Shown: piece after piece, positions 6,323 to 57,766 of the stretch | Layout: each line of letters opens with the position of its first letter | Position numbering within the stretch: the first letter of the stretch is position 1 | Assembly (NCBI GenBank): GCA_023055425.1 | Contig: JALGPY010000003.1 | Location: forward strand, 71,523,491-71,587,490 | Reading direction: 5' to 3' | DNA length: 64,000 nucleotides | Origin: Linanthus parryae | Taxonomy: Eukaryota; Streptophyta; Magnoliopsida; Ericales; Polemoniaceae | The notes under the pieces: model-generated | The model's input: only the letters and a program-made list of their open reading frames with translations | Databases searched by the model: none | Told to the model about the DNA's origin: nothing | Translations under genes and position numbers: made by a program

Positions 6323-6956
6323 TGTAGATAGTGCATTACAGACATACTGATCATAGCCACGTGGCAGCCATCCAACACATCTAACTGTGCTCCATATACA
6401 CCAGATCATTGCTCATACTCATCCACGTGGGGGCTGCGAGACATGGCCACCTGCGATGCTCACCACATGGTACTTGTAGGGATTTAGTGGTTTGGAGGCT
6501 AGAGTAAGGTTCGTCGCGCGCGAACAACAACGAAGCTCGCGCACGACCCTTTGTAACTGATTTGAGAGACATAATGACCACGTCCTATAAACCCGATCGA
6601 TCTCATAACGGTCTCCGGTATATGCGGGCAGGTGCGTAACGTTCCCCATATATACGGTGAAACATGCCGTTACGGGTCTATCATTAAGCCGCCATTTATG
6701 GGCGCATTAACCCCTCACAACGGTCACTTCCCTACTATATATAGGATCGTTAGCCCTCCGTTGCAATATCTTGGATGCCCTGTGACTTTCTAGACTTCTG
6801 GATTCACCGAAGCTCTATTATTAAGTTGTCTATCTCTCACGCAGTTACCATTGCTCACTCTCTCCCTATTCACACCGTGCACTTCTCTGTGTTCTTACTC
6901 TAATCCTCTAGTTGAGGTGTACACTTGGATCTCTCCCAAGGATTTCACTGTACACA
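6323..6956 (+). repeat. 5' LTR of element A
   Basis: It is 634 bp, beginning TGTAGATAGTGC and ending CTGTACACA. It shares phrases with the LTR of element B read on the minus strand, such as GTGGGGGCTGCGAGAC. TATA-like stretches at about 6646 and 6734 could position the promoter. The other copy (32359-32926) lacks about 66 bp matching roughly 6732-6797. Confidence 0.9.
6357..6430 (+). promoter_or_regulatory. Two G-box (CCACGTGG) motifs in the LTR of A
   Basis: Perfect palindromic CCACGTGG lies at 6357-6364 and 6423-6430. G-boxes bind plant bZIP and bHLH factors in light and stress responses. Element B's LTRs keep one CCACGTGG each (43021-43028 and 57725-57732), so the site is conserved in the family. 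That it drives LTR transcription is inference. Confidence 0.4.
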
Positions 6957-6959
6957 ATT

Positions 6960-7013: not shown

Positions 7014-7601
7014 CATGTCTCTTGGAGCCAACCTTCGTGATGGTGAGCAGTCTCCTTTATAGGAAGAAACCTCGAGAGAGGAGACCCTTGACGCTAACAC
7101 CAATAATAATACCCAAATAGCTACTGGGAGCAATCCCTCTTTGGAGATGTTGTAAGCCACAATCCAAAGCCAAGCCAAGGCTATGCATGCTCAGTCCACC
7201 CATATTAACCAGATCATGGCGATCCTAGGAGGACTCATTCAAAACGTTGCTCAGGGGACTTTAGCTCCACATCTTGCAGCCCAGTTGCCTCCACCAGGGG
7301 TACTCCAACCCCTGGGGTGCGCACATCTGCCCCACTTGGTTCACATTCCTCTCTTCCCAATGGTCCTGTCCCCAAGCCACCAAGGTTGCCATTGGATTCA
7401 TCTCTTGCATCTGCTGGAATTCATACTCGATTGGGGCCCAGGGGAGTTATGCATCTCCGCCTCCCTATGATCCCAAAATGCCTTACATTTCGAGCCTTGC
7501 TGCAACATCATCACCAACCCCAGTGGGAAGCGCACTAGCAAATATGTCAGCCTTGGAACATCGTCTGGACAACTTTCTGACAAACCAGTGTTTCGCGGAC
7601 A
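7014..7601 (+). pseudogene. Element A gag, first part
   Basis: The start context CAACCATGTCT matches the gag start of element B (AACCATGTCTCAGG at 57100 on the minus strand). The segment corresponds to the N-terminal region of B's gag: it includes IQSQAKAMHAQS, then a Pro-rich stretch and the NQCFADT motif (B: HQSFADTI). In-frame stops occur early (TAG at 7059 and again near 7154), and there is a frameshift around 7310. Gag would form the particle shell; this copy cannot. It is interrupted at 7602-7606 by element F and resumes at 15142. Confidence 0.8.
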
Positions 7602-15000: not shown

Positions 15001-15141
15001 CTTTTCGAATAATCACGAGTTTTAAAATCAATGTGTTTAGCCTCTTGACGAGTCAAGGCCTCACCGGCATGTCGCGCCCTCCTGCTGTTAATGCAAATCT
15101 TTTATCATCGCTAATCGGGGTCGGCGGGAGGGGATGCGACA
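12029..15141 (+). repeat. 3' LTR of element F (3113 bp)
   Basis: It begins TGTAGTGACCCGC and ends GGGATGCGACA, followed by the target duplication CTATC. The element's polyadenylation and promoter signals should lie in here, but I cannot place them. Confidence 0.92.
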
Positions 15142-16033
15142 CTATCATCCCCAAAGTCGATAGTGCCCCGCCAGTTCCCAAAGAAGTTTATTTGATGTCC
15201 AATCCTGCTGGGTAGAAGACACCAAAATTGGACAAGTTCGATGATGTTAGCGGATGCGCATGAGCATGTCATGTGTTTCGTTGATTTGATAGGTCCATAT
15301 GGAGCTGATACGCTCCTGCTGATTCGCGAATTCCCCAAATCCTTGGAGAATGTCGCGTACAAATGTTACAGGACGTTGGAGGCTGGTTCGATCAAGACCT
15401 GGGAAGACATGGTGAAGAAGTTCTACACCAAATTCTTCCAAGTTGAGGAGAAAGTCACAACCATACACCTATCTCGGATGCACCAGAAGCATGACGAGGA
15501 AGGAGTCGCATTCATCAAGAAATTTCGGACCAGGTCCCTCGAGTGCGTTGATGAAGTGTGTGAAAGTCTTCTCATGGAAATATGCCTCCAAGGGATGCGC
15601 GATGAATATAAAGTATGCTCATCAATTTGAACATGCCTACCTTTTCAAAATTGATTGACTGCACCAGGAACATCGAGCCACTGGTGGAGAAGCAAAAGAT
15701 GAGGTACGTGAATGATCGCACGTCCATGGGCTCCACTTTCCGTATTGGGAGGTTCAGTTACAAACGCTGACGTGAAGCGGTGGAGGAAAGACGGAATTTT
15801 ACCGGCACTAGAGCATAAACCCAACAGGGAGCAGTTGCGCGATTCCAGATGGTGCGATTGGCATGATCGAGTCTCGCACCCTACCAAAGAATGTAAGAAG
15901 CTGAGATGGCTGGTAGACAAGAAATCAAGGAAGGGCAGTTGATCATCGACGATCAAGCTAAGGATGTACGCAGCAACCCGTTGCCATCTCATCCGGATCA
16001 AGAACCGAAAGGAAAAGAGGTGAACAACGCATG
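15142..16033 (+). pseudogene. Element A gag, second part
   Basis: It continues the gag interrupted by F. It matches B's gag in order: IIPKVD, REFPKSLENVAYKCYRTLEAG, KKFYTKFFQVEEKVT, then a zinc-ligand-like segment WCDWHDRVSHPTKEC (Cys-x2-His, His-x4-Cys as in TAT gags) and finally KGKEV. At least three frameshifts and several stops break it (for example near 15214, 15620 and 15765). Homology to gag stops at about 16020, where element A is deleted for the rest of gag, protease and pol. Confidence 0.8.
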
Positions 16034-32175: not shown

Positions 32176-32358
32176 GATTAGCCGCACAACGAACATCTGC
32201 TACCTTTTACAGAGCCCTAGGAAATGATGACGACTTATGGGGACAAGAGTTTCAAGCATTAAATTATTCAAAATTCAAACGACCCACGTGGAGATGCGCA
32301 TGAGTGATTTTGCGCGCCACAGCAAACGCGCGCGTGATATTTTGCAAAACGGAGCTAA
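32176..32358. other. End of the interior of element A with polypurine tract
   Basis: Non-coding. The tract AACGGAGCTAA (about 32348-32358) touches the 3' LTR and corresponds to AAAGGGGGCTAA of element B. An alternating CG/GC stretch (GCGCGCCAC, ACGCGCGCGTG) lies at 32312-32336. Confidence 0.6.
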
Positions 32359-32926
32359 TGTAGTTAATGCATTCCAGACAGACATATCACAGCCACGTGG
32401 CAACCATCCAGCACAACTGACTGTGCTCCATATACACCAGATCACTGCTCATACTCATCCACGTGGGGGCTGCGAGACAGGGCCACCAGCGATGCTTACC
32501 GCACGGGACTTGTAGGGATTTAGTGTTTGGAGGCTAGAGTAAGGTCCGTCGCGCGCGAACGACAACCAAGATCGCGCGCGACCCTTTGTAATTAATTTGA
32601 GAGACTTAATGACCACTTCCGATAAATCCGGTTGATCTCATAACGGTCTCCGTTATATGCGGGCAGGTGCGTAACGTTCCCCATATATACGGTAGAACGT
32701 GCGGTTACGGGTCTATAATTAAGCCGCCATTTATGGCGCATTAACCCCTCAGAACGGTCACTTCCCTTCTGGATTCACCGAAGCTCTGTCATTAAGCTCT
32801 CTCTCTCACGCAGTTACCATTTCTTACTCTCTCCCTACTCACACCCTACACTTCTCTGTGTTTCTTACTCTAATCCCCTTGTTTATGTGTACACTTGGAT
32901 CTCTCCCAAGGATTTCTTTGTACATA
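32359..32926 (+). repeat. 3' LTR of element A
   Basis: 568 bp, starting TGTAGTTAATGC and ending TTTGTACATA (CA changed to TA), followed by the target duplication ATGAC. It lacks about 66 bp present in the 5' copy: CACTTCCC joins directly to TTCTGGATTCACC. Confidence 0.88.
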
Positions 32927-32931
32927 ATGAC

Positions 32932-40934: not shown

Positions 40935-42355
40935 TGTTGGAATAGATGCCCTAGAGGCAATCTGATATTTAGTATGAACATTGTTATTGGCTAGAATATT
41001 CATTTGTTATATACTGTGATATTTAATATAATTAATCCTTACATAAACTGTGTTGTTTATCTTAAATATCCCTAGTCCACTATATTGATTAATAGGACGA
41101 TCAAATATAGACTAGTATGTGTGTAGATTGATATGGAGGTATCAAGTATAACACATGGGTATGCATTAAGGGTAATGGCATATTGGATTGACCCACAACG
41201 AGAAGGATACATTAGATTATGTTAAGTCACAATCGCTTCTCGTAGTGCTAATATAATTTCAATTCTTAGACTTGAAGTCACTAGATACTCTAGTTGTGAA
41301 ATATCGTGCTTTGATGTTATCAAACGTTACACCGTAACTGGGTAATCATAAAGGTAGTTATCGGGCATGTTAGGAAGCAAGCTTAGAGATTGTAGTGATG
41401 TAGATAGTATTTGTCCCTCCCACATAATGGGTGAAAATATCCACGGCCACTCGAGGGATGAGGCTTATTGAATGTCTGGCCAGACTCAGATAAATACATA
41501 TGGAGATATTGATGTTATCTGCTTGCATAAGCATATTCCCAGGATCGAGAAACTATGGATTGGATATACGAGTGTGACTATTTATGTCTCGTGTCCAATC
41601 CGGATATGGAGACAAATGGATAGTGAAATATGAGATATTGGGCACAAGAGGTTTGTCGGGATCACTGACTAATTCTGTTAGTTGGGTGGCATGGATGTGT
41701 TGCTAGACACTGCTCCATGTTAGTAATAAGTTACTACCAACTAAGTAGAAACCTATGGGGTCACACGTCAAATAGAGTGGAACCAGATTTGGTATTAATT
41801 AATATGATTAATTAATAAGAAGGATCATCGTGCAACACCTTGCAAACTTAATAGGACTAATATGCAAGGAAGGGACTAATCCAAGTTCATGTAGAACTAG
41901 GAAGGACCTTTATGTAGTTAACAAGGAATTGTTGGACTATATAAAGGAGGCTCTAGCTTCCTTCCCACTTAATGTTATTAGACATAACACAAGAGAGTGG
42001 GAGAGATCAAGAGAGAGAAAGAGAGAGCAAGAACAAGCTAGAGGCCGAAGCTCCTAGCCGTCCGCCCCTTCCCGTCGGCACAAGAGATGGTCGAAACCCT
42101 CTCTAATTCCTTTGGTTGTTTGATTCCTTCTTCCCTCTTCCTCCGGGCCAAGCTATCACTTGAGAAGGAAGAATATAGATCTCACCTCTAGACGTGGATA
42201 AACCATAGAGACGAGGACATTATACTTCGTGTGATCGCCCAAACCAAAAGGTACACAATTACTATGTCTCTTATCATGTTATGATGTCTCTTCCTGTGAT
42301 CCTTGGTGGGCTTTGAGTAGGAATTAAATTTTGTTATTCCGCTGCGTTACCTACA
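40935..42355 (+). repeat. 5' LTR of element D
   Basis: 1421 bp, TGTTGGAATAG to TTACCTACA. It differs from the visible 3' LTR at several positions per 100 bp in the first part, so D is considerably older than B. Confidence 0.88.
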
Positions 42356-42369
42356 TCGAAACCAGACAG

Positions 42370-42382
42370 TGGTATCAGAGCC
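42370..42382 (+). other. Primer binding site of element D
   Basis: TGGTATCAGAGCC, complementary to initiator tRNA-Met, lies 14 bases after the LTR. Element C has the same spacing. Confidence 0.85.
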
Positions 42383-42436
42383 AGGTTGTAGTGCATAACA
42401 TGATTTTATGTTTTACAATTTTAGTTTATACACCGT

Positions 42437-43062
42437 TGTGCACAAGAGATTCCGGCAGGGAGACCTCCGTGTACACCGTGTGTAGTGGATCAAGGATCGC
42501 ACAGGAAGAGTGGGGTTGTGTGTAGGGAGAGAGTAAGTCAATAGCAATGTCAGAGAGAGAGACAGAGGTTTGGCAGAGCTTCCGCGTATGGCAGTGTGTC
42601 CTCCTTTGTATGGAAAGGTTGACGATCTATATATACTGGAGAACATGACCGTTGTAGCGTGGTTAATGCGCCCATTAATGGCGGCTTAATTAGCTTAACC
42701 ATAACGGCACGTCCGTCCGAGTATATAGGGATCGTTAGAGCACGTGGTGCGCGAATACCGGAACCGTTACGAGGTTGACCGGGTTTGACCGGATTGACCG
42801 GGTTTATGGAGCTCGTGCCATAAATCTCTCAAAACAGTTACTAAAGGTCGCGTGCGGGCTTGGCTCGCACGCGACAGGGCTTACTCTAGCCTCCAAACCA
42901 CAAGATCCCTACAAGTCCCGTGCAGTGGTATGCGAGGGCTCTGTCTCGCAGCCCCCACATGGATCAGCTCGGCTGGTGATCCAGTGTGTATGGAGCACAA
43001 TATGGTGTGCTGGATGGCTGCCACGTGGCCAAGATTTGTCATGTCAGAAAGCAGTATCTACA
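42437..43062 (-). repeat. 3' LTR of element B
   Basis: On the minus strand it runs TGTAGATACTGC to TTGTGCACA. It differs from the other LTR at about 42632 (T for C), 42732 (T for C) and 43037 (T for C). A TATA-like stretch, AGTATATATAG, lies mid-element on the minus strand. Confidence 0.95.
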
Positions 43063-43750
43063 TTAGCCCCCTTTCTGCGCGTGAAGACTCATAGCCGTAT
43101 AGACTTCCATGCGCGGAAACCAACATACGCGTCTCCGCCACGCACCAATTCAAATACGGGTAGATTCAGCCCCCGTGCGTGTCAATATGACCTAAAACCC
43201 CTAGAGTCGTGTCGTCTGACCTTTAGGGTTTTAGGCGTGACGTCAGCTTGTCCTGTGATTGCGCGATTCGACGGTGACGGTTGCGATTCGACTATCGAAA
43301 GGACGCAACCCTTCATTGTTTTGGATAAATACCTTGTATCCCCCATTATTGCAAAGCATCACTTCTTTCTCTTAAAGTGAATGGTACCCGGAGATCTTCG
43401 AGAGCAGATCCAGATAATCAATCACCAGTTCAGAACTGCAAATCGTATTCTTCAATTGTGCATATCCAAGCAGGCTTCAAGAAAACAAGGTTGGCCTCGT
43501 TTACTTTTGATTTAAGATACCAGTGTTTGCCTTGAACTGCGTTGAATCTGTAAACCCATGAAATTTGTGAAGAGGCTTTGATCTTTGAACCCGCTTCGTT
43601 TTAATCTTTCAATAATATTGGATCTTGCAACTCCCCAATTTCTGAAATCGATACCGGAACTGTTCGTCTTCCTTTGCATAGATCTTGAATTCCAAAATTC
43701 AAACTGAAGTGTGGTATTTCTCCCCCCTTTTTTCTTGCTCTTCCACAGAA
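43063..43750. other. Polypurine tract of B and upstream region of the antisense gene
   Basis: The minus-strand tract AAAGGGGGCTAA (43074-43063) primes plus-strand DNA synthesis. The remaining 670 bp should hold the promoter and leader of the plus-strand PMD-type gene. GATAAATACC at about 43323 is a weak TATA candidate. There is no coding region. Confidence 0.6.
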
Positions 43751-46700
43751 ATGGCCAAGACAAGAGTAACCAGACCCGTCAAGGAAGATGAAGAGATACC
43801 CGACCTTCCGCAGGCCTTGTGGCGAAAAGCCCCCTTTTTAGGCGGCAAAGATTTCTACCATGCGAGGGTAAAGGCGAAGAGGATGCCTGATCCTGTTCCA
43901 GTTGAGCGATTGCTGACGCTGACTCGCCCAGTTAACTCAGCCCTGCTCGAGTTGGTTGGTTCCGAGGATGTAGTTCGATTGGGGATCGAGAATGGGCACT
44001 TCCCATATACTGCGATTTCTACTCACGCGTTCGTCCAGAAATTGGACTATATGGATGAGTGGATTGACCACGTGTTGGATCATCACGCTGTGACTCTTAA
44101 TGAAGCCGGCGTATACTTTGCTATCCATGCTATGAAGGGTGCTGCCGTGAAGTTGGATCAGTCCATGCTTCTAGACCTTCTGTCCCGTTACTCGCCTGCG
44201 ACTCATACGTTCCATTTTGCTGAGTTCGAGGCTGCCCCGACACTCGAGGACGTTCAAATGCTGTACGAGCTTTCCCCCATGGGCGAGTTGGACCCTCTGA
44301 GTCCCTTGAGGACATCTGCGGAGATTGCCTTGTACACGCAGATGGAGGAATGCCTAGCAGAGGTGAAGAAAATCTCCACTCGGTGGACTACTACGAAGCC
44401 TCTTCCGAACTGGCAGTTGGTCGATACGTCTGCGAAGAATACCTGGAACAAATGGTTGCAGTACTTCTTCCGAGACTATGCGAATAGCAGCATCACTAAG
44501 AAACTTCTGAGTGAGGACCCAGAGGCCGAAAATTACGTAGAGGGCAAAGGCTATCATTTGACCCTTTGTGCTTTTCTCTGTGCCTGGCTGTCGAGGTACT
44601 TGATTGATGGTCACCCCCATGACGGAGTCTTCTACCATGTGTTGCCACTTGCTGTAAGGCTCGCTCTTGGCCAGAGAGTCGCACTCGGACCCTTGGTCTT
44701 GGGCACGCTGTACTATAGGCTTGATCAGCTGGTTCTGGCTATGAGGGAGTCGCGTGGCCGCCTCGATGTACTGACTTTTGTCAATATTTCCTTTTTGACA
44801 ATGTGGGTGTTCGAGCGCTGGCCGTCTTATGCTCCAACTGCTCTCCAACTTGACAAGTGGTGTCCCCCAGGCGAGACAGAAGCACGCAACAGCGGAAGAG
44901 CTGCGAGATGGTTCGGAACAGGCAACACCAAGTGCGTTTGGAGTTTGATATGCGACAAACGGAAGGAGTTTACTGCCGGGCCCTATGCCACGCGCATTGA
45001 GAATGTGCGATGGTTCCCAAAGCTGTACCCCTCTAAAGGCATGGTCTTTTCAGAAGAGCTTCTCTTTGAAGGGAGACCTCATTTTCATGAGCGCTACCGC
45101 GAGTTCTTTTGCTGGTGTCTGCGAGGTTCCCTTCCTGCCCTTGCAGAGCATATTCGTGAGCTCGCGCCGAAGTATGAAAAGCTTACCGTGGACGTTGACC
45201 CCACTCGAGTTTCTCCTCAGTTTGGATTTGATGCGGTGGCCCCATCAATCTGGCCCCAGTCCATTGTCAGAGGATGCTACAAGCGCTTGCTAACAAAGGA
45301 GTGCAAGACGGTTTTCATGAACAACCTTCCTTTTGAGCAACCTGCGGGAACCCGCAAGGGTGGTTGTTCCCAGAACTGGCTCGCATACTGGGTTGCCCAG
45401 CAAACGAGGATTGAGACGGAGTCGGCCGCGCAGCCAGGTAGATCTCCTTTGATTAAAAGGAACTCTTTTCCGTTTCGCCCCACTTGCAGTCTGAGCGAGT
45501 CTGAGTATGGTTGCTACTCACTGTGGGATCGTGAGAACCATTTGTGCCCTGATGTCATTCTGAAGGAGCAAGTCGCCGCAATTAAGAAGGGCGATACGCA
45601 TGTCGTCAGATATAGCAAGGCATTTGCTGAGGTAAGCAATTTCTCCGCGTGCATTTAAGCTTCTTGATTTCCTTATGCTGACATCTTTACTCTGTACGGT
45701 TGTAGTGTCATGTGCGGCGATTCGCATCTGGCGATCGCTCCAAGTCATTGGTCAACGCCATCGTTGCCACCAGGAGAGAAGGGCAGTCGTTCCGGCTATC
45801 GTGGAGGATGGAACCTGAGCTCGAAATGAAGATTCGCGCGGTCATGAATGCTTTTGCTGACTCGCTGATAGACAATCCTCCGGCTCCGTCTCCTCCTGGA
45901 GATGACCCGTCTCCTCCAGTGACTGCGGCGCCAAGAGTGAAGAGACCTAGGCAAAAGGGAATTACGATTTCTTCCCCTAGGAATGCCCCAGCTTCTCCCC
46001 CAGTGAGGTCCCTTTCTATCAAGGACAAAGGCAAAGGTCGCATGCCCAGCAAGGTGCGGAAAGATCTCGCAGTTGAGACCTTTGTTCCGTTCAATCAAGA
46101 GGAAGAGGAAGAGAGGCAGGAGCCCCAAGCGAGTGATGAAGAAGAAGTAACAGTTGTGATGCATGAGGAAGAATCAGGAGGTACCTCCGTCGCATTTCCT
46201 TTCCCGTTATCGTAACTTCTTTGCACTTCTTTTCTTTAAACCAATTGGGTATTCGCAGATGATGATGAAACCATTGGTGGCCTTGTGGCCAAGAGACAAA
46301 AGAGAGATGCCCATTCCGGCATTCCAGATGAGCCCATAAGCGAGGACGTTCTTGCTGAGTCCCGGAAGACAGCCGCGGAGGCTGCTGAAAGAAGAAGGCG
46401 GCGAGAGGAAGAGGAGCTCGAGCGTGTGAAACAGCGGAGCCTCGAAGAGCAGCATGTTGACGACTTAGTGCGTCCAGTTGGCGAGGAAGACGAGCTTCCC
46501 GAAGAAGTGGCTCCTCATGCGGAAGAGGAAGATGAGGTTCCCAGAGAGGATGCAGCGGCCTTGGAGCAAGTCCAAGCAGACTTCGAAGAGATCGCAGGTG
46601 GCGATAAAGGTGAGATCTTCAATCTCGCAGTAACTTATAGAGATGTTATTGTGGGTGCGTTAAAGCATGGTGTGTCAAAGGCTGACATTCGCCGTTGGTT

Positions 46701-48037
46701 AGTAGGCAAATGCGGAGAACCCTCAGGTAACTATTTGAGTGATACGCACGTACTAGGCTTTAGCAACTTAAGGGAGAATCATGACTGGTTTATTCGCATC
46801 CCAGGTCACGCTTCTCTTAAAGACCTGCTTAGTGAGGACACACTGATAGGGCATGGTTCCACGTCCTTAGTGTATGATGAGGATACCTCAATCCCACCTT
46901 CGCGTGGAGGTGCTTTCTCTTAGCTTTAGCAAAGATAGCAAAATAACTTATAACGCAAGTTACCTCATGTCATCGCATTCTAATGTCGCAGGTTATGCTG
47001 AGGAACCTGAGCTGGAGCGGAGAAGTCAGCCTTCTGCGTCCTATGTTCCAATTCCGAGCTCCCATACCGAGAAGCCCGTCGCAACTGCTGACCACGCGGG
47101 TGAGCCTCTTGAGGACATCATCGAGCTTTCCGACGATGCTGGAGCTGATGCTGTGCTGATGGACGAAGATGTCCATGCTAGTGCTGAGGAAGTAAGGACG
47201 AGTGCTGCTAATGTTCTCGCATCTGAGAGCGTCCTTCGTCAAGCGACTTCGGCCGTCCCTTCGCCCCCGGCGATGACTGAGCCAGAGGCACCTATTCCTG
47301 CGTGGAGCATTTGGGGCTCGCAGGTTGGGAATGCAGTCGCAGCTGGTGCGGCCTACATTCTTCCTCCCGACTACGAGAGATTGGAGCTCGTAGCTGATAG
47401 GAGAGCTATGGAGCGAGGGCAATCTTCGAACGACCCGGCAGCCCGCATTCCTTCCCTTCATGGGATTCTGGAAGGAACTGGTAAGTAGAGCTTTGCTGTT
47501 CGCACGTTGCATTATTCGTTTGCGAGTTTTGATATCATAACTTATTTTGACGTCTCCTCAGGTTTGAAGCAAACCGATGTAGACTGGGTGGTTCGAATGC
47601 GTCTCAGGTACCCCCGATCGTTTGTGAGATCTCTGGAGATCGGGCCTTTTGACAGGAGGCTGTTCCTTACTGAAGCCATTTGGATTTTGGAGCAGCTATC
47701 TGCGGCTACGCCCGCGACCATTTCGGTCCAGAGTGCTGAATTGCTATGTGGCATGTGCCAAAATCTCGTGACCAAAGTCCAAGGTAGAATGGGCTTCAAG
47801 TTTCTCAAGGACAGAGTCACGCTGATTCGCGCAGCCATAACTTTGAAACTCGGTCACCAGAATCTCGCAGTTGAGATGCAGAAGGTGGAGCAGCAGAAGC
47901 AAAAGGTTGATGAAGCTCTGAAGCTGTATCATGAGATGAATACTAGGTGCGAGCTACTGAAGCAAGAAGTGAAACAAGTGGAGAAGCTGAGCGAGCAGTT
48001 CGAGCCCCAAGACTCCTTAATCAAGAATCTGCTTTGA
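43751..48037 (+). CDS. Antisense PMD-type protein of element B (five exons, 1262 aa, intact)
   Basis: Exons 43751-45631, 45706-46180, 46259-46726, 46992-47480 and 47562-48037 sum to 3789 bases with no stop. All four introns (74, 78, 265 and 81 bp) are GT-AG and phase-consistent. The start CACAGAAATGGCC (MAKTRV) matches the start in element A. Residues about 20-400 are a plant mobile domain: KAPFLGG near 26-32, LNEAGVYFAIHAMKG 116-130, ATHTFHF 150-156, APTLEDVQMLYEL 162-174, FERWPSYAP further on. The middle is Pro/Ser-rich with basic KRPRQKG, then acidic; the last exon looks like a coiled coil. PMD proteins include Arabidopsis MAIN and MAIL1 and many transposon-borne copies; their biochemical role is unclear. 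The gene runs against gag-pol and converges with pol. Confidence 0.85.
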
Positions 48038-49190
48038 TTTTCGAATCTTGCAAAAATAGCAAGAAAAATAGCTAAAACATTAATGTAATGTCTTGAACAT
48101 TAATGTAATGTTGCTAGGGTTTCTCCCCCTTTTTTTTAACAACAATGAAATTTCCCGTTTTGCCCTTTTCCGGGATTTGATTGGATATTTCTGTGCATAT
48201 CCAATTATGACATCAGCAATTGATACTCTGCTTGATTTTCGCGCTAATTTCTCGGCAGATAAGCACGCCTTCGTTGGGAAGTCCATCCGAATCATGACCA
48301 TCCGTCATTTATTAGGATACGCAACTGAATCGTCGTAGCCTTTAGTAGGGTAATTGATTGTTACCGCTTTTCAAGGCGTAAGTGATTGAACTTACCCTCT
48401 TTTTGAATTTTGCTGACTCATCTTAGGCAACCGAAGAGTCTGTACAGGGTCTATATAAACCCTGTCTTTGCTATTTGGGTTCTTCATCCCAAACATGTGC
48501 TTTGCCGTGAGTCCTTACGACTGCTGGCTTCAACGCTTATTTTTCGTTGATTCATGGCAACTTCAAGTTTTGAATCCTGAGTTTGCGCTTTGTGCTATAG
48601 AAATAGTTTCCAAGATCCACTTTATGAGGCTTATTGCTCTTTATAACCATCATAAAGAAGATGCAGATAATATCTCATGTGTGTTCGAAGAAATTTCTTC
48701 GTGTATTATGTGTGCAGGTCATGTTTCCGGCCGCCTCGTGGTGAGGTGCAGCGCCGAAGTGACCGTGCTACCGTCTCGTAATGAACGGCGGAATTCTTCT
48801 TCAGCATCCCTGGAGAAGAATCCGTCACCTTCATGTTTGTGAGCTCGGGGTGACGAACCGTCGCGTTCATCCCCGTCTACAAGGAGCCCTTGCCCTTTGG
48901 AGCTTCTGCTTTCCTGTGGATCGCCGGAACCGGTGGTTCCTTGGGCAAATGTTATGGGGCGCAGATCTGACAACGGTCTTGTCGAATACCGGGATCTTGA
49001 GCGTATGGCTTCATGTGGCTCTTTTAGAGCAGGATCCCCCCTGCTACAGATGTTCACCCGCAGATCTGTGTGTTGCGTAGCCGGTGTCGAAACCGGTGGG
49101 TTCATCCTTTTCTAGTCGGAATTCCCGTAGTGTGTTTCTGGCTTGTCAGCCATTTTTCGAATGTATTGTAAGCCATGTTGGCTGCGTAGT
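48038..49190. other. Spacer between the antisense gene and the tandem array
   Basis: Probably the 3' untranslated part of the antisense gene: ACATTAATGTAATGTC is repeated twice at about 48077-48113, and AACAATGAAA follows. Near 48444-48465 the inverted pair ACAGGGT/ACCCTGT encloses CTATATAA, a possible promoter or hairpin. The GC-richer part (48720-49100) has short frames on both strands with no recognisable protein. Confidence 0.45.
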
Positions 49191-50540
49191 TAGATTCGAG
49201 TTCTTCGCTTGTAAGCTGCTATCTAGACAGATAAATTGTAAATCATTTGACTCGTAATGATAAATAGCTTTTTGTATTATCTGCTGTCTCTTTACAACAA
49301 AATACAATTTCGCATGCGTTTCGGCATATTTCGCCTTGCATAGTGCTGTGTAATTCTTTCGCATCTGCGATATATTGATTCGTGGGTGTTTCACTAGATC
49401 GTTCGAGATCGTATCTTCGCAGCTGTGCCATCCCGGCAGATGGGCTTGTGGTTGGCCATTGTGGATCATTTAAGATCATTTCCACAAGGTTGTTATCGTA
49501 GTAGATAGTCTTTAGCAGATCAATTAAGATCGTTAAGTAGTGCGAATTGCTATCATGGCAGATAGGCTTTATTAGAGAATCAATTGAGATCATTTCTCAC
49601 ATAAACTGCTATCGCAACGGATAGACTTTTAGAAGATCTAATAAGATCATTTTGCGCATGCGTTGCCATCGTAACAGATAGGCTTGGGCGATCAAGTAAA
49701 ATCGCTTTGCATATAAGTTGCTATCGTAACAGATAGGCTTAGATAATTAACTAAAATCACTTTGCATATAAGTTGCTATCGTAGCAGATAGGCTTGGGTG
49801 ATCAATTAAGATCGCATTTAGACAGGCCGCTATCGTAAGAGATAGGCTTATATGATCGATTAAGATCGCATTTGTACAGGCTACTATCGTAAGAGATAGG
49901 CTTATATGATCGACTAAGATCGCATTTGTATAGGCTGCTATCGTAAGAGATAGGCTTAAAGGATCAATTATGATCGCATGGGTTGCTATCATAACAGATA
50001 GGCTTTTATGATCAATTAAGATCGCATTTGTATAGGCTGCTATCGTAACAGATAGGCTTCTATGATCGATTAAGATCGCACTTGTATAGGCTGCTATCGT
50101 GAGAGATAGGCTTTTATGATCAATTAAGATCGCATTCGCATTGGCTGCTATCGTGAGAGATAGGCTTAGATGATCACTTAAGATCGCATTTGCATTGGCT
50201 GCTATCGTGAGAGATAGGCTTAGATGATCACTTAAGATCGCATTTGCATTGGCTGCTATCGTGAGAGATAGGCTTCGATGATCGCTTAAGATCGCATTTG
50301 CATTGGCTGCTATCGTGAGAGATAGGCTTAGATGATCACTTAAGATCGCATTTGCATTGGCTGCTATCGTGAGAGATAGGCTTCGATGATCACTTAAGAT
50401 CGCATTTGCATTGGCTGCTATCGTGAGAGATAGGCTTAGATGATCACTTAAGATCGCATTTGCATTGGCTGCTATCGTGAGAGATAGGCTTCGATGATCG
50501 CTTAAGATCGCATTTGCATTGATTGCTATTGTGGCGAATA
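49191..50540. repeat. Hairpin-bearing tandem array of element B (54-bp unit)
   Basis: The units contain GCTATCGTGAGAGATAGGC, whose arms CTATC/GATAG can pair, followed by ATGATCACTTAAGATCGC with GATC twice. The left part is diverged (about 45-54 bp spacing); the right part (about 50100-50530) is near-identical with an exact 54-bp period. It sits beyond the pol stop, between pol and the antisense gene, as in element A. Confidence 0.9.
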
Positions 50541-50633
50541 AACCATTGTTAAAAGTAATAACAAACTGAATAGAGCAACATAAACAGCTAGAAATGTGAA
50601 TTTCTCATTTGGGAGAATTCCTCTATTATAACG

Positions 50634-50679
50634 CTCTCATATGGGAGAGATGAGATTACAATCCTCTCATATGGGAGAG
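50634..50679. repeat. Paired palindromes CTCTCATATGGGAGAG
   Basis: Two identical copies (50634-50649 and 50664-50679), each nearly self-complementary, lie 70 bases beyond the pol stop, with a weaker third (TTCTCATTTGGGAGAA, about 50602). One copy is kept in element A (16173-16188, inverted as expected). Possibly a 3'-end or processing signal of the gag-pol transcript; unproven. Confidence 0.6.
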
Positions 50680-50749
50680 GAGATTGCGTAAATCGTAGCC
50701 ACATGAGACATTAAACAACGTTATCATAAAACGTATGAAACGAGAGAAG

Positions 50750-53700
50750 TCAGGGATAGTACTTCTTGATCCAGCGCATGTTGATTGAACTCGGAGTTGA
50801 GGTTCTTCCGTGCAACCTTCGTATGCTGCAGTAGCCACTATCGAAGACTTCTGTGACTTCGAAGGGTCCTTCCCAATTAGCTGCAAACTTTGGGTGAGTT
50901 TCTTCTCGCATACAGTGGTCAGATGCGCGCAAGACCAAGTCTCCGACCGCAAAATCTCTTCGCTGGACCGTCTTGTTGTAGGCGCGAGCGATTCTTTCCT
51001 GGTACCGCTTGTTGGTCTTTTTGGCTTGTTCTCGCTTTTCTTCGAGCAAGACTAAGTCATGATCGCGTTGATTTTCATAGAGTGCATGGAAGGCCAGCCT
51101 TGCCGAATTGACTCTAACCTCCGCAGGTACTACAGCTTCGGCCCCATAACATAGCAGAAATGGCGAGGCCCCTGTGGGTGTCCTTGGAGAAGTTCTGTAG
51201 GCCCACAGAGCTATGCTTAGAGAGTCGGCCCACTTCTTGTGGTCATCCGCGACTATCTTGCTCAATATTCTCAACAGCGTCTTGTTAGTTGCTTCGGCTT
51301 GTCCGTTTCCCTTTGGGTAGTAAGGGGTAGAACATATCTGCCTGATATTGTACTCCGCTAATTTCGCAGATACCTGGCGATTAACAAAAGGAGTACCGTT
51401 ATCTGAAAGAATGGTGTTTGGGATTCCGAACCTGCATACGACGCTTTCCTGGATAAAGTTGACCACAGCCAGCGCATTTGCCGTCTTTAGTGGTATTGCT
51501 TCCACCCACTTGGTGAACAGCTCGGTTGCGGTGAGAATGAAATGGTTCCCGTGCGACGTCGGTCGGATGGGACCGATGAAGTCCAAAGCCCATGTGTGAA
51601 ATGGCCATGGCGTCCCTAGTGCATGTAGATCCACAGCGGGAGCGTGCACTAGGTTCCCTTTGAATTGACATTCCTGGCAGCGTCGTACTTTGGTGCAGCA
51701 ATCGACCTCCATCGTGGGCCAGAAATACCCGATTGAGAGGAGCTGCCTGCATAATTTTGCACCTCCTTGGTGTTCCACCTGATGAGAAAGGTCCATGACT
51801 TCTTGCGCTTCTCTGTCGTCTAGACATCGCAGCAAGTTGCCCTCGTGACCTCTTCGCCAAAGTAGGTTTTCCTGTACCACATATCGAGACGCTTTCCTTT
51901 TCAATTTTTCGGCTTCCTTTCTCGATTCGGGCACGGTGCCCTGGGTGAGGAAATCGAACAGTGGCTTCCTCCAGTCCGTGTCGTCATCGATTAGGGCGAC
52001 GAGTAGAGAATCTTTGATTAGTGCGCAACTTTCGCACTTCCCTTGCATCAGGGCTGCAGCTGTTGACATGTCTGGCCAATGAATGCCATATCTCTGAGCC
52101 TTTCTGTAGATTGACACCTCGCTTTCTCCACAAGCGTGTTGGTGAATCTTTTCTAACAGCTGTTGTCCCTCTTGCTCGGAGACACATCGCATGAGTATTC
52201 CCCCAGGACCCTTGTAGTAAAGGGTGTTGTCGTGGATGCAGTATCCTTTTGTGAGTGCCCAGCTTTCGTTGCTGGTGCCCTTCGCAATAGCTTGCAAGAT
52301 TGGTTTTCGCCAGTCTGCGTCATCCATGTGTTCGTCGTCGCACGCATCTTCTGTCAATGCCGACGATGTTCGCACTTCGATGGAAATCTTTGCGGGGCAC
52401 TTGTCTGTGCTGACCTTAGATCCCAGAGTTGCTAAGGCGTCTGCGTGCCTGTTGTCTGCTCGGGGCTTGTGCTCATACTTCACATCGCAGAATTGTTGCA
52501 TCAGCTTCTGTACTACGGTGCGATAAGACAGGAGGTTGATCTCCTTCAAACCATATTCGCCCGAGGCTTGCTTAACAATCAGCTTGGAATCTCCCATGAC
52601 TGTTAAGTTGCTCACTTCCAAAGCTTTCGCCGCACGGAGCCCCACAATGAGAGCCTCGTATTCCGCTTCGTTGTTTGTGACTGCGAAGTTGAGCTTTGCG
52701 AACATCTGTATGACTTCCCCATCTGGCTTTGTCAAGACTATCCCAATGCCTCCGCCTTTCCGGGTTGACGAACCGTCGAAGTGGAGAGTCCAATAGGACA
52801 CGTCGATTGCGTAGATCTCAGGGCCTTCGAGCTCTTCTTCGATCACGGGCTCATGGCTGTTATCGGGGAACTGTGCCAACAGATCTGCTACCGCCTGCGA
52901 CTTGATCGCTCGTGGTCGCACACATCTGATATCGTATTGGGAAATGGTCATGTACCACTTCGCCAGTCTCCCTCCCGGAGTAGTGTGAGTTAGCAAGTAT
53001 CTTATGGGGTCGCTCTTGGTGACCACTACTACTTTGTGTGATGCAAAATAGTGTTTCAACTTCTCTATCACAAAGAATAAGGCAAGGCAATGACGTTCAA
53101 TGTCCGTGTACCTCGACTCAGCAGGCTGCACGATGCGAGAGATGTAGAAGATAGGCCTCTCTTGGCCTTCATACTCTTGAGCCAAGAGCGCTCCTATAGA
53201 TCTCCTTGTAGATGTCAGGTATAGCAGAAGCGGTGACCCCAGTTGAGGCGCGATCATTATCTTTGAGGACGTGAGTAAATCCTTCAGCTTTCCGAATGCG
53301 GCTTCGTGCTCCGGAGCCCAGTTGTACGCGGCGTCCTTCTTGAGAAGAGTGCTGAAACAGCATGTGATTTCGGCAATTGCTGGAATGAATCTCCGCAGAT
53401 AGGATAGCTTTCCTAAAAATGTCTTCAATGCACTCTGATTATGGGGCGGCGTCATGCCAGTGATAGCTGATACTTTCGCGGGGTCGGGCTCTATCCCTTG
53501 GCGATGAACCACGCATCCCAAGAATTTCCCTGATGTCACCCCGAACGCGCATTTCATGGGATTCATCTTCAGTTGAAAGCGCCTGCATCTATTGAACACC
53601 TTTCGCAGATCTGCGAGGTGGTCTGCTTCGTGTTTGGATTTAACCACCAGGTCATCCACGTAGAATTCAACCTCTTTGTGCATCATGTCGTGAAATAGAG

Positions 53701-54475
53701 CCATCATGGCTCGCTGATAGGTCGCGCCCGCGTTCTTAAGGCCGAACGGCATCACCGTGTAGTTGAATACCCCTACAGGAGTGATGAATGCAGTTTTCCG
53801 CGCATCTTCGGGATCCATCTTGATTTGATTGTACCCGCTGAAACCGTCCATGAAACTGAACATGCGATGGCCTGCTGTTGAATCGATGAGCAAATCGATG
53901 TTGGGCAGTGGGAAATCGTCCTTGGGGCAGAAGCGGTTGAGATCTCGGAAGTCCACGCAGATGCGGAGCTGTCCGTTCTTCTTCACCACTGGCACGATGT
54001 TGGCCAGCCATGTGGGATGATGATTCGGCTCTATGAACTTGGCATCTAGGAGTTTGACAATCTCTTGCTTGATCTTGACGTTAAGCTCCGGCCTGAAGCT
54101 CCTCGTGCTTTGCTTAACCGGTTTAGACCCGGGGACGATGTCTAAACGGTGCATGGTGATGCTTGTATCCAGACCTGGCATTTCATCATACTCCCATGCG
54201 AACACATCCTTGTATTCAGTTAGGAGTTGTAGCAGCCCTTGTTCTTCTTCGCTTGTGAGACCCGCGCTCAGGAAGACTGGCCTTTTCTTTTCCTCGTTCG
54301 GGCTGAGGAACACTTCCTTTAGCTCTTGCTTTTGCGGTCTTGGCCTGTCTTCCATGCATTCAGGCGCTTCTTTGAGTTTCTCGTCTGGAGTGCCTTGTGT
54401 TGGCTCTTCTGTCAGCGCAATTTGCTCGATTTGATTGATTTGCCCAGGGATATCCTCATGCCCGCGTGAGGACAT
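50750..54475 (-). CDS. pol: Element B pol: RT, RNase H, archaeal-type RNase H, integrase (1241 aa, open)
   Basis: Makes the DNA copy and inserts it. RT about residues 110-290 with FYVDDLVV (YVDD 272-275); first RNase H about 415-535, lacking the usual first catalytic Asp (LYLTSTRRSIGALL); second, archaeal-type RNase H about 561-680 with Asp567, Glu605, Asp629 and Asp679, typical of the TAT lineage. The integrase zinc-binding region appears twice: residues 720-823 (HQHACGE, CESC) and 833-945 (HQVEH, CQEC), each opening with DWRKP. The catalytic triad is Asp965, Asp1025, Glu1061 (D-59-D-35-E). ATG 54475 lies 15 bases after the gag TGA in the same frame, so pol may be made by stop readthrough or re-initiation. 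No break seen. Confidence 0.93.
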   Translation of the reverse strand: MSSRGHEDIPGQINQIEQIALTEEPTQGTPDEKLKEAPECMEDRPRPQKQELKEVFLSPNEEKKRPVFLSAGLTSEEEQGLLQLLTEYKDVFAWEYDEMPGLDTSITMHRLDIVPGSKPVKQSTRSFRPELNVKIKQEIVKLLDAKFIEPNHHPTWLANIVPVVKKNGQLRICVDFRDLNRFCPKDDFPLPNIDLLIDSTAGHRMFSFMDGFSGYNQIKMDPEDARKTAFITPVGVFNYTVMPFGLKNAGATYQRAMMALFHDMMHKEVEFYVDDLVVKSKHEADHLADLRKVFNRCRRFQLKMNPMKCAFGVTSGKFLGCVVHRQGIEPDPAKVSAITGMTPPHNQSALKTFLGKLSYLRRFIPAIAEITCCFSTLLKKDAAYNWAPEHEAAFGKLKDLLTSSKIMIAPQLGSPLLLYLTSTRRSIGALLAQEYEGQERPIFYISRIVQPAESRYTDIERHCLALFFVIEKLKHYFASHKVVVVTKSDPIRYLLTHTTPGGRLAKWYMTISQYDIRCVRPRAIKSQAVADLLAQFPDNSHEPVIEEELEGPEIYAIDVSYWTLHFDGSSTRKGGGIGIVLTKPDGEVIQMFAKLNFAVTNNEAEYEALIVGLRAAKALEVSNLTVMGDSKLIVKQASGEYGLKEINLLSYRTVVQKLMQQFCDVKYEHKPRADNRHADALATLGSKVSTDKCPAKISIEVRTSSALTEDACDDEHMDDADWRKPILQAIAKGTSNESWALTKGYCIHDNTLYYKGPGGILMRCVSEQEGQQLLEKIHQHACGESEVSIYRKAQRYGIHWPDMSTAAALMQGKCESCALIKDSLLVALIDDDTDWRKPLFDFLTQGTVPESRKEAEKLKRKASRYVVQENLLWRRGHEGNLLRCLDDREAQEVMDLSHQVEHQGGAKLCRQLLSIGYFWPTMEVDCCTKVRRCQECQFKGNLVHAPAVDLHALGTPWPFHTWALDFIGPIRPTSHGNHFILTATELFTKWVEAIPLKTANALAVVNFIQESVVCRFGIPNTILSDNGTPFVNRQVSAKLAEYNIRQICSTPYYPKGNGQAEATNKTLLRILSKIVADDHKKWADSLSIALWAYRTSPRTPTGASPFLLCYGAEAVVPAEVRVNSARLAFHALYENQRDHDLVLLEEKREQAKKTNKRYQERIARAYNKTVQRRDFAVGDLVLRASDHCMREETHPKFAANWEGPFEVTEVFDSGYCSIRRLHGRTSTPSSINMRWIKKYYP

Positions 54476-54487
54476 CCCCGCGCACCT

Positions 54488-57100
54488 TCATATGCGGTAG
54501 CACTTCTTCCCATTGGCGTAGAAGCTCTCTATCTCCTTGCCCTCGGGGTCATGCTTTGCGATCCTCTTCAGAGTGTACACGTTCTTCCGATGATATGCGA
54601 TGCGCGGCGCCTCTTCGCGTGTAGGCGGCTTTTCCTCGGCATCTTCCGTCGTCACCATTACCCCTGCAGGCGATTGGTCCTTGATGTCCTCCCAGAGAGG
54701 CAAAGTAGTAGGGTTGAATGGTCCGGGTGTTTGCTCATCTGCCATCTCGGTGAACCACACCGCCTCGCTGAGATGTGCTTCGTCCAAATTGAACGGGTTT
54801 GTCGAAGCCGGTATCTCGACTATTCTGTCGTTCCAGATAGCTTTCATAACCTGGTGAGCCGTCGAAGGGACTGCGTCGAAGCGATGAATCCAGGCTCGAC
54901 CTATAATCATGTGGTATGTGGTGTTCGCATCTATGACATAGAACTTTGCTGAGCACTTGATTTTGCCAATCTGAACGCCCAGGCGGATCCATCCGATCGT
55001 CATTCTAGAGTCGCTGCCGAATCCCACCAGCGGAGATGGACGCCTGACTACCTTATGTTCGGGGATCCCTGCTAGCCTCAGTGTGTGGAGCGGAACGACG
55101 TTGACCGCTGCTCCTCCATCGACGAACGCTCGTTTGAACTCGACGCCATTGACGATGGCGGTCACGTACAGAGGTCTCTGGTGGCTCGCATCCGTCTTCT
55201 TGTCGCTGGCAGAAAAGGTCATAATCTTTTCCATAGAGCGGGATGCCCTGATGACTTTCCCGTTGGAGACTGCAAGGTCCTCCTCGTAGTCCTCTGCTAT
55301 TCTCAAAATTGCTTTCGTCATATCAGTCCGGCACTTCTCGGAGAAGTTCATCTCGTCGAAGAATTTATTGAAGCCATGCGACCCTTTCATGCGGTCGGCA
55401 CGTTCATCCTCTGTGTCCATGCTATAGTCTTCGTCTTCATGGACCTCGGCGACGATGGGCAGACCATCATCTGCGACTTCTTCCAAGTCGACGATTGAGA
55501 TCATGGAGACTTCTTTGCCCTTCGAGCCCGATTCCGCATGCGCGGGAAGCGGGTTGTTGCGCACGTCCTTCTGGTGATCGCTGACGATGAGTTCGCCGTT
55601 CTTCATCTTCTGATCGAACGCGAACCTGAGTTTCTTACACTCGGCGGTGGGATGCATGACCTTGCCGTGGTACTCGCACCACTTAGGGTCCCTCACCATC
55701 TCCTTGGAGGGTGTTTTCTCGAGTGGTGGCAGGACGCCGTCCTTGCGCCACTGTTTGCAGAGGTCACTTGCTTCCTCTACCGAGCATGGCAGAGGCGGTA
55801 CATCGAAATTCGCAACCTTCGCTTGTTTCTGGGGTGAAACTGTATTGACCTCAGCTTCGCGTCCCCGCTTGTAGCTAAACCTTCCGATCTTGTAAGTGGG
55901 GCCGCTCGCAGGTCGCTCTGGAGCGCTCTTCTTTTTCTGTCTCTCGACTATGGGCTCGATGTTCTTCGTGCATTCGATTAGCTTTGAAAACGTAGGTGTT
56001 TGCAGATTGATGAGCATACCTTTGTATTCATCTCGCATGCATTGCAGGCATATCTCTACGAGACGGCTTTCGGGCATTGGATCTTTGCACTCCAAGGATT
56101 TCGCCCTGAATTTCTTGATAAAGGTGATTCCTTCCTCTTCGCGCTTCTGGTACATCCGCGAGAGATGGATCATCGTCACCTTTTCTTCCATCTGGAAGAA
56201 CTTGGTATAGAACTTCTGGACCATGTCGTCCCAAGTCTTCACAGATCCGGCCTCCAATGTTCGGTACCATTTGTATGCTACGTTCCCAAGAGACTTTGGG
56301 AACTCTCGCATCAGCAGTTTGGGATCAGCTCCGTATGGACCCATGACATCAATGAAACGCATGACATGCTCATGAGCGTTTCCGTTGACGTCCTCGAACT
56401 TATCCCATTTAGGGGCCTTGTACCCCACCGGGTTAGGCATGAGATAGATCTCTCGTGGAATGGGTGGATCGTTGTCTAACTTCGGGATAATGGTATCCGC
56501 GAATGACTGATGAGCCAGAATAGTGTCCACACGCTTCTGCAAAGACGTCATGCATTCTGGAATGCTCCCCTCGGTAGTTGACGGAGGGGTTGCCGTGGGC
56601 GGTGGCGACACATACGCCGCTGGAGGATTGGGAGCATACTGACTGCCCGCATTTCCCCAGATCATCGTTGGGGGAGGTAAAGGGTATTGCAGAGTTGGGT
56701 TGGACGCCAAAGCCGATGGCTGAGGAGCGTGAGCAGCAGGAGGCAGCATCTGTGCCGTTGATCCCTGAACCGAAGGCAGCTGTGTAGCTGACGGTGGAAT
56801 CTGCAGATGAGGGTTGGGAGGTGTGGCTGACACTCCCAATCCTGGAGCGGTAGGGGTTCCTCCTCCCTGAGGGATAGCGGTGGCTGGTGGAGGATTCGGC
56901 GCAAGGGTGCCCAGAACGGCCAAGATTTGTTCTAATTGCGCAGATTGAGACTTGAGAGCTTTCGCCTGACTTTGAACAGTAGCGTCCAAAGACTCTAACG
57001 TCGGTGCTTCGCCGGGAGTCGTTGGAGTACGGCGGGTCTCGTCTCCTGAGGGAGTTTCGGTGGAAGGCGATCGGTTACTGACATCATCCTCCTGAGACAT
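54488..57100 (-). CDS. gag: Element B gag-protease (870 aa, open)
   Basis: Gag forms the particle; the C-terminal aspartic protease cuts the products. The start at 57100 (MSQEDDVSNRS) has context AACCATGTCT, shared with element A. Order: a Ser/Thr-rich start, a Pro-rich region, the retrotransposon gag domain (REFPKSLGNVAYKWYRTLEA, KKFYTKFFQMEEKV-like), a Cys-x2-His...His-x4-Cys segment (WCEYHGKVMHPTAEC), then protease with FVDGGAAVNVV (TAT elements use DGG instead of the usual DSG/DTG) and the flap-like HMIIGRAWIHRFDAVPS. It ends at TGA 54490-54488, in frame with pol. No break seen. Confidence 0.92.
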   Translation of the reverse strand: MSQEDDVSNRSPSTETPSGDETRRTPTTPGEAPTLESLDATVQSQAKALKSQSAQLEQILAVLGTLAPNPPPATAIPQGGGTPTAPGLGVSATPPNPHLQIPPSATQLPSVQGSTAQMLPPAAHAPQPSALASNPTLQYPLPPPTMIWGNAGSQYAPNPPAAYVSPPPTATPPSTTEGSIPECMTSLQKRVDTILAHQSFADTIIPKLDNDPPIPREIYLMPNPVGYKAPKWDKFEDVNGNAHEHVMRFIDVMGPYGADPKLLMREFPKSLGNVAYKWYRTLEAGSVKTWDDMVQKFYTKFFQMEEKVTMIHLSRMYQKREEEGITFIKKFRAKSLECKDPMPESRLVEICLQCMRDEYKGMLINLQTPTFSKLIECTKNIEPIVERQKKKSAPERPASGPTYKIGRFSYKRGREAEVNTVSPQKQAKVANFDVPPLPCSVEEASDLCKQWRKDGVLPPLEKTPSKEMVRDPKWCEYHGKVMHPTAECKKLRFAFDQKMKNGELIVSDHQKDVRNNPLPAHAESGSKGKEVSMISIVDLEEVADDGLPIVAEVHEDEDYSMDTEDERADRMKGSHGFNKFFDEMNFSEKCRTDMTKAILRIAEDYEEDLAVSNGKVIRASRSMEKIMTFSASDKKTDASHQRPLYVTAIVNGVEFKRAFVDGGAAVNVVPLHTLRLAGIPEHKVVRRPSPLVGFGSDSRMTIGWIRLGVQIGKIKCSAKFYVIDANTTYHMIIGRAWIHRFDAVPSTAHQVMKAIWNDRIVEIPASTNPFNLDEAHLSEAVWFTEMADEQTPGPFNPTTLPLWEDIKDQSPAGVMVTTEDAEEKPPTREEAPRIAYHRKNVYTLKRIAKHDPEGKEIESFYANGKKCYRI

Positions 57101-57120
57101 GGTTGCTTTTGTTGGTAAGT

Positions 57121-57137
57121 TCACGTCGGGTTCACCA
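57121..57137 (-). other. Primer binding site of element B
   Basis: TGGTGAACCCGACGTGA on the minus strand, three bases inside the 5' LTR. Same as in element A apart from one base. tRNA not assigned. Confidence 0.75.
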
Positions 57138-57140
57138 AAA

Positions 57141-57766
57141 TGTGCACAAGAGATTCCGGCAGGGAGACCTCCGTGTACACCGTGTGTAGTGGATCAAGGA
57201 TCGCACAGGAAGAGTGGGGTTGTGTGTAGGGAGAGAGTAAGTCAATAGCAATGTCAGAGAGAGAGACAGAGGTTTGGCAGAGCTTCCGCGTATGGCAGTG
57301 TGTCCTCCTTTGTATGGAAAGGTTGACGATCCATATATACTGGAGAACATGACCGTTGTAGCGTGGTTAATGCGCCCATTAATGGCGGCTTAATTAGCTT
57401 AACCATAACGGCACGTCCGTCCGAGTATATAGGGACCGTTAGAGCACGTGGTGCGCGAATACCGGAACCGTTACGAGGTTGACCGGGTTTGACCGGATTG
57501 ACCGGGTTTATGGAGCTCGTGCCATAAATCTCTCAAAACAGTTACTAAAGGTCGCGTGCGGGCTTGGCTCGCACGCGACAGGGCTTACTCTAGCCTCCAA
57601 ACCACAAGATCCCTACAAGTCCCGTGCAGTGGTATGCGAGGGCTCTGTCTCGCAGCCCCCACATGGATCAGCTCGGCTGGTGATCCAGTGTGTATGGAGC
57701 ACAATATGGTGTGCTGGATGGCTGCCACGTGGCCAAGATCTGTCATGTCAGAAAGCAGTATCTACA
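57141..57766 (-). repeat. 5' LTR of element B
   Basis: 626 bp, TGTAGATACTGC to TTGTGCACA on the minus strand. It carries one CCACGTGG (57725-57732). Near-identical to 42437-43062. Confidence 0.95.

Follow-up and report, generated by a model that had tools for sequence, protein, structure and literature searches.

Element B, a young Ty3/gypsy long terminal repeat (LTR) retrotransposon on the minus strand of a 64,000 bp stretch of the Linanthus parryae genome (the window; contig JALGPY010000003.1, positions 71,523,491 to 71,587,490), carries on its opposite strand an intron-bearing gene for a Plant Mobile Domain (PMD) protein. The gene is very probably real, built to be spliced and maintained by selection. 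In the preferred reading, which is given a probability of about 0.5, it is under purifying selection, has its own predicted promoter and seven predicted exons, and encodes a likely nuclear protein that would weaken host silencing.

The gene occupies the plus strand of element B between pol and the 3' LTR (Table 1). As revised, the model comprises six coding exons that form an open frame for a product of 1297 amino acids. The five introns of the coding region are of the GT-AG type, with phases 0, 1, 1, 1 and 1 and lengths of 74-82 nt, and their GC content is 38-42% compared with 49-58% in the exons. The original prediction, a five-exon PMD gene of 1262 codons, was right in that the gene is antisense, bears introns and translates without a stop, but its third intron (46727-46991) hides a further exon at 46805-46909. 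This exon was seen by alignment with element A, a diverged relative of B in the same window, the sequence GHASLK...GG in B corresponding to GHAKLK...GG in A (by eye). The intron phases were revised as well, and a leader intron probably precedes the coding region. Probably, then, the gene comprises a leader exon and a total of six introns behind an antisense promoter of its own. A promoter near the 3' LTR had also been presumed, and promoter-like and leader signals do stand at corresponding places in relatives; the junctions, the leader exon and the promoter are all predicted from sequence. The first coding exon (627 codons) sits within an open stretch of 658 codons. When the region between pol and the 3' LTR was base-shuffled 200 times, the longest open stretch to appear was 201 codons, and a chance open frame is rejected for this exon.

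Exon 1 matches the PMD profile PF10536 (E = 3.9e-26, 92.5 bits against a curated cut-off of 34.9) over profile positions 4-294 of 347, the end of the profile being unmatched, and the membership in this family proposed earlier is upheld by the match. Basic clusters that resemble nuclear signals are found in exons 2-3. Structure prediction for exon 1 from an alignment of 13 rows gave a mean predicted local distance difference test score (pLDDT) of 33 and a predicted template modelling score (pTM) of 0.22. No homologue of a 1223-residue spliced model, without exon 4 and with a shorter exon 3, was found among 7995 scored candidates of a protein collection, and none of exon 1 among 7996 scored candidates of that collection, in viral contigs or in the PDB; these null results say nothing about novelty, because the collections searched may include few plants.

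A search of the genome (1.51 Gb, 121 contigs) with exon 1 turned up 17,320 first-look candidates. Scoring was confined to the best 70, which were 98-100% identical, 60 of them having no stop. Twenty copies, among them the window's own (L001), were ranked by exon 1 and aligned over 42251-47131. Exons 2-4 had no part in the choice of these copies; exon 5 is cut by the ends of the loci and exon 6 lies outside them, and neither was counted. The ratio of nonsynonymous to synonymous divergence (dN/dS), pooled over 190 pairs, was 0.30, 0.20 and 0.25 for exons 2, 3 and 4. Variants were scored relative to the window's copy and called shared when the rarer base was found in at least two copies. The shared variants of exons 2-4 comprised 24 nonsynonymous and 40 synonymous changes, the expected nonsynonymous number being 43.2 (standard deviation 3.7), and none of 5000 simulations was as low. 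For variants restricted to a single copy the numbers were 79 and 52, with 93.9 nonsynonymous changes expected (standard deviation 5.0) and 16 of 5000 simulations as low. Exon 1 had six nonsynonymous and 91 synonymous shared variants, with 65.3 nonsynonymous expected. Shared variants are more constrained than private ones, as expected for a gene that selection maintains in active elements and that degenerates once a copy has inserted. The frame of exons 1-4 is broken by an indel in just one of the 20 copies, L016, from which 201 bases of exon 3 are also missing, and intron lengths vary. In L071, the best match outside the window by noncoding similarity, dN/dS for the whole gene was 0.27 (20 nonsynonymous and 22 synonymous changes), compared with 1.04 and 1.44 in the shifted frames. 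The selected function suggested in the original prediction is thereby strengthened, as dN/dS in the gene's own frame is far below 1 and purifying selection on the protein extends to exons 2-4.

The constraint tracks the reading frame. The three codon positions differ at 0.0145, 0.0100 and 0.0552, and exons 2-4 read in shifted frames show no nonsynonymous deficit. This bears on the alternative that the antisense RNA, and not the protein, is what matters, pairing with the sense RNA and feeding small-RNA control; such a role has been discussed for antisense transcripts of elements of this kind (PMC7264820), and PMD genes of tea yield phased small RNAs (PMC10673657). A function of the RNA only is rejected on the frame-dependent constraint, and the alternative is considered very improbable.

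Element A (6323-32928), in which other repeats are inserted, contains a degraded version of the PMD gene (21944-17121), antisense to its gag. A search with this piece gave at least 146 matches in the genome, 49-100% identical, and 20 diverged relatives found in this way were compared. The donor GT of intron 1 is kept in 16 of the 20 (judged by eye; it is changed in L060 and L065, while L059 and L064 have other sequence). The motif of the intron 3 junction was found in nine relatives, with the donor GT in eight and the CAGGT acceptor in eight, and a counterpart of exon 4 is present in element A and in further relatives. Among these relatives, codon positions 1, 2 and 3 differ at 0.27, 0.21 and 0.41 in the part not used as query. 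The leader was aligned for nine relatives, element A included, that were selected by a strict acceptor-ATG motif, the other 11 being left out. A TATA-like box is found at the same place in these nine, with an exact TATAAA in four, and the donor GT of the leader exon is in register in six. The positions of the predicted splice sites are kept across diverged element families.

Introns of a gene in sense orientation would be lost when the spliced RNA is reverse-transcribed. From established retroelement biology, the intron signals of the PMD gene should be absent from the packaged RNA because this is the opposite strand; it would hold only the complements of the introns, which the spliceosome would not recognise, and the introns would survive reverse transcription. 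Protection by antisense orientation was part of the original prediction and is consistent with the introns kept across diverged families, and further with the lack of any credible spliced-out copy, although the latter comes from a weak test of one junction. In that test a 24-base pattern over the predicted junction of exons 1 and 2 was found at 58 places, all with three mismatches, compared with one place for the control. For 56 of the matches the letters were obtained, and 55 of these have the same sequence apart from one base; a pattern joining this shared sequence to the expected next codons had no match, and the 55 are therefore taken as an unrelated repeat. In the remaining one of the 56, CAG directly precedes exon 2, which resembles the usual end of an intron. 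The absence of copies without intron 1 in this search is expected if the antisense mRNA itself is not copied.

The genome contains at least 127 matches to PF10536, the best of which crowd on contigs C57 (126.3-127.7 Mb) and C46 (154.9-155.9 Mb). The best 30 are called host-like as a working label. In 29 of these the domain lies in one open frame, while L025 has an internal stop, and alignment of six of the host-like proteins with the element protein gave identities of 22-25%. The loci L021-L050 are long single open frames, some of them nearly identical, as in recent tandem growth. These many genes would have been an available source if a host PMD gene had been captured recently and were carried as passive cargo without function. 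Recent capture is rejected on the single open frames of these loci and the low identity of the six aligned, and dN/dS far below 1 contradicts a lack of function, so that this explanation is hardly credible. Because diverged elements share this gene layout, any capture of the PMD gene is old.

The host proteins MAIN and MAIL1 act in the silencing of transposable elements (PMC5418596), and because of the kinship with them interference with silencing is the most attractive role for the element protein. Counter-silencing by PMD proteins of elements has been proposed before (PMC8616336), and a decoy or counter-silencing idea has also been put forward for PMD captured by Mutator-like elements (PMC5418596). 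The protein would be nuclear and would compete with the host machinery of the MAIN/MAIL1 type or act as a decoy for it, which is the least certain step; the chance that the protein has a silencing role is about half. A more specific proposal, in which antisense orientation is an intron-safe harbour for a complete seven-exon, promoter-driven gene that Tat-type elements have carried through repeated reverse transcription and the element's own PMD protein is a decoy or poison of a MAIN/MAIL1/PP7L complex, appears rather doubtful. The same selected and spliced antisense gene could instead encode a protein that serves replication, by nuclear entry of the integration complex, target choice or control of sense transcription. 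All the sequence evidence fits such a role equally or nearly as well, and accessory functions have been proposed for proteins of antisense open reading frames (ORFs), of which the Grande one is nuclear (PMC7264820), and for other antisense ORFs (PMC11963269). A replication role leaves unexplained why the protein should have a domain whose host members act in silencing (PMC5418596), and it is regarded as a real possibility, though not as the favoured one.

Several observations weigh against the preferred reading of a selected gene that weakens silencing. Transcription, splicing and protein are predicted here from sequence, and the silencing role is argued from domain kinship, at 22-25% identity to the six host-like proteins. 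The dN/dS of exon 1 in the 20 copies (0.052) is biased low because exon 1 ranked the copies. Synonymous divergence (0.062-0.095 by exon) exceeds that of the LTR (0.030), the leader intron (0.028) and introns 2-4 (0.037-0.041), so that dN/dS may look too low; divergence of intron 1 is 0.079. Measured against introns 2-4, the dN of exons 2-4 (0.015-0.023) gives ratios of about 0.4-0.6, a milder deficit that nevertheless remains, and that of exon 1 (0.005) a ratio of about 0.13. A guess at the cause of the raised synonymous divergence is loss of methylated C from third codon positions, which are GC-rich. In the simulations neither exon 4 taken by itself (607 of 5000 as low) nor the private variants of exon 2 (1038 of 5000) reach significance. 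A stop variant in exon 2 is common to at least two copies and another, in exon 3, occurs in a single copy, and L071 is frame-broken by a 4-base gap in exon 1. Splice signals also deviate in some copies: L010 and L013 have GC as the donor of intron 1, L014 has GCAT at the acceptor of intron 4, and changes in the leader acceptor occur in L005, L010 and L013.

Human T-cell leukaemia virus (HTLV) has a spliced antisense gene of the HBZ type. The PMD gene would work like such deltaretrovirus genes, with a spliced antisense transcript, a protein product and a promoter on the LTR side (PMC8622228), whereas its protein is unrelated to HBZ and is encoded by more exons, in a transcript that is predicted. 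Host proteins of the MAIN/MAIL1 type share the domain, but the element protein continues into a long additional C-terminal part that separate exons encode. PMD is reported in extra ORFs of Tat-lineage elements, including 57% of Ogre elements, and PMD-A1/A2 clades encoded by gypsy elements are known (PMC6317226, PMC5418596); the gene of element B is likewise encoded within a Gypsy element, of the Tat type. These accounts describe the Tat PMD ORFs as open frames and mention no intron structure for them, unlike the element B gene with its seven predicted exons, conserved splice sites and predicted promoter. In its antisense position between pol and the 3' LTR, its conservation within the family and the tandem repeats nearby, the gene resembles aORF-3R of Retand, Grande and RIRE2 (PMC7264820, PMC11963269), and gene23 of Grande is described with a promoter of its own and a product located in the nucleus (PMC7264820). 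The aORF-3R of those elements differs in carrying a Transposase_28/TRP28 domain or, as described, none known. In PMC11963269 each ORF was looked for as one uninterrupted frame, and a word search found no mention of PMD there. Earlier work thus covers PMD in gypsy elements as well as antisense ORFs in Tat elements, while a conserved antisense PMD gene that has several exons and a leader intron was not found in the open-access literature searched, most subscription journals being outside this scope. Genes built in this way will be overlooked or broken up in surveys limited to uninterrupted frames, and Vicient 2020 ends by calling for study of antisense and spliced transcripts (PMC7264820). The gene would show how a retroelement keeps a gene with all its introns, which ought to be lost if spliced RNA were reverse-transcribed, and that selection acts on such a gene as a protein inside the element. 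It also makes the published speculation that elements use their own PMD proteins against silencing testable on defined genes.

The two LTRs of element B are 626 bp each and identical at 623 of 626 sites, three being different, and a 5 bp target duplication (ACCGT) flanks the element on both sides. The Pfam domains of pol are, in order, reverse transcriptase, RT_RNaseH (414-514), RVT_3 (566-683), H2C2 (887-937) and rve (958-1054). The Ogre/Retand part of the Tat clade is recognised by an additional RNase H domain that lies after the first and before integrase (Neumann 2019, PMC6317226), and element B is therefore assigned to it. The Ogre arrangement, in which the gag-prot and RT ORFs are split by about 274 bp that are spliced in part, is not found; gag and pol are parted by a single TGA (54488-54490) in a continuous frame, either a read-through signal or a simple mutation, and the next ATG follows 12 bases past it. 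Ogre elements are further characterised by a primer-binding site that matches tRNA-Arg; the site of element B reads TTTTGGTGAACCCGACGTGAAC. Published Retand sizes are 315-1,194 bp for the LTR, 7,380-12,869 bp for the internal region and 2,933-6,566 bp between pol and the 3' LTR (PMC11963269); the LTR of element B is in range, while its internal region (14,078 bp) and its interval between pol and the 3' LTR (7,687 bp) are too large. The antisense TRP28 (Transposase_28) ORF typical of Retand gave no match in a Pfam scan of exons 1, 2, 3, 5 and 6.

Table 1. Features of element B and of its antisense PMD gene (positions in the window).
Feature	Position	Strand	Remarks
Element B, Tat-clade Ty3/gypsy LTR retrotransposon	42437-57766	-	LTR pair, target duplication, gag and pol domains
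3' LTR	42437-43062	-	
TATA-like box GGATAAATAC, predicted promoter of antisense gene	43323-43332	+	lines up with boxes of relatives; in 20/20 B copies
Predicted leader exon	43355-43489	+	start placed, as a guess, some 30 bases after TATA-like box; donor CAAG/GTTGG in 20/20 copies
Predicted leader intron	43490-43748	+	acceptor two bases before ATG
Coding exon 1, PMD	43751-45631	+	PF10536 match
Coding exon 2, basic clusters	45706-46180	+	
Coding exon 3	46259-46726	+	
Coding exon 4	46805-46909	+	conserved in element A and relatives
Coding exon 5	46992-47480	+	
Coding exon 6 with stop	47562-48037	+	26% identical to its match in element A
54-bp tandem array, 16.2 copies	49664-50533	.	between pol and antisense gene
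pol ORF: RT, RNase H, second RNase H, integrase	50750-54475	-	
gag ORF	54488-57124	-	
Primer-binding site TTTTGGTGAACCCGACGTGAAC	57105-57140		
5' LTR	57141-57766	-	

The LTR pieces of element A (near 6323-6958 and 32344-32928) are about 88-90% alike, and gag fragments were found at 7081-7386 and 15135-16025. No match to pol was found in element A at E<=1e-3, and it may be a pol-less element that retains gag and the PMD gene. On the sense strand of element B an open stretch of 285 codons lies roughly over the 54-bp array, perhaps merely as a result of a repeat period divisible by three.

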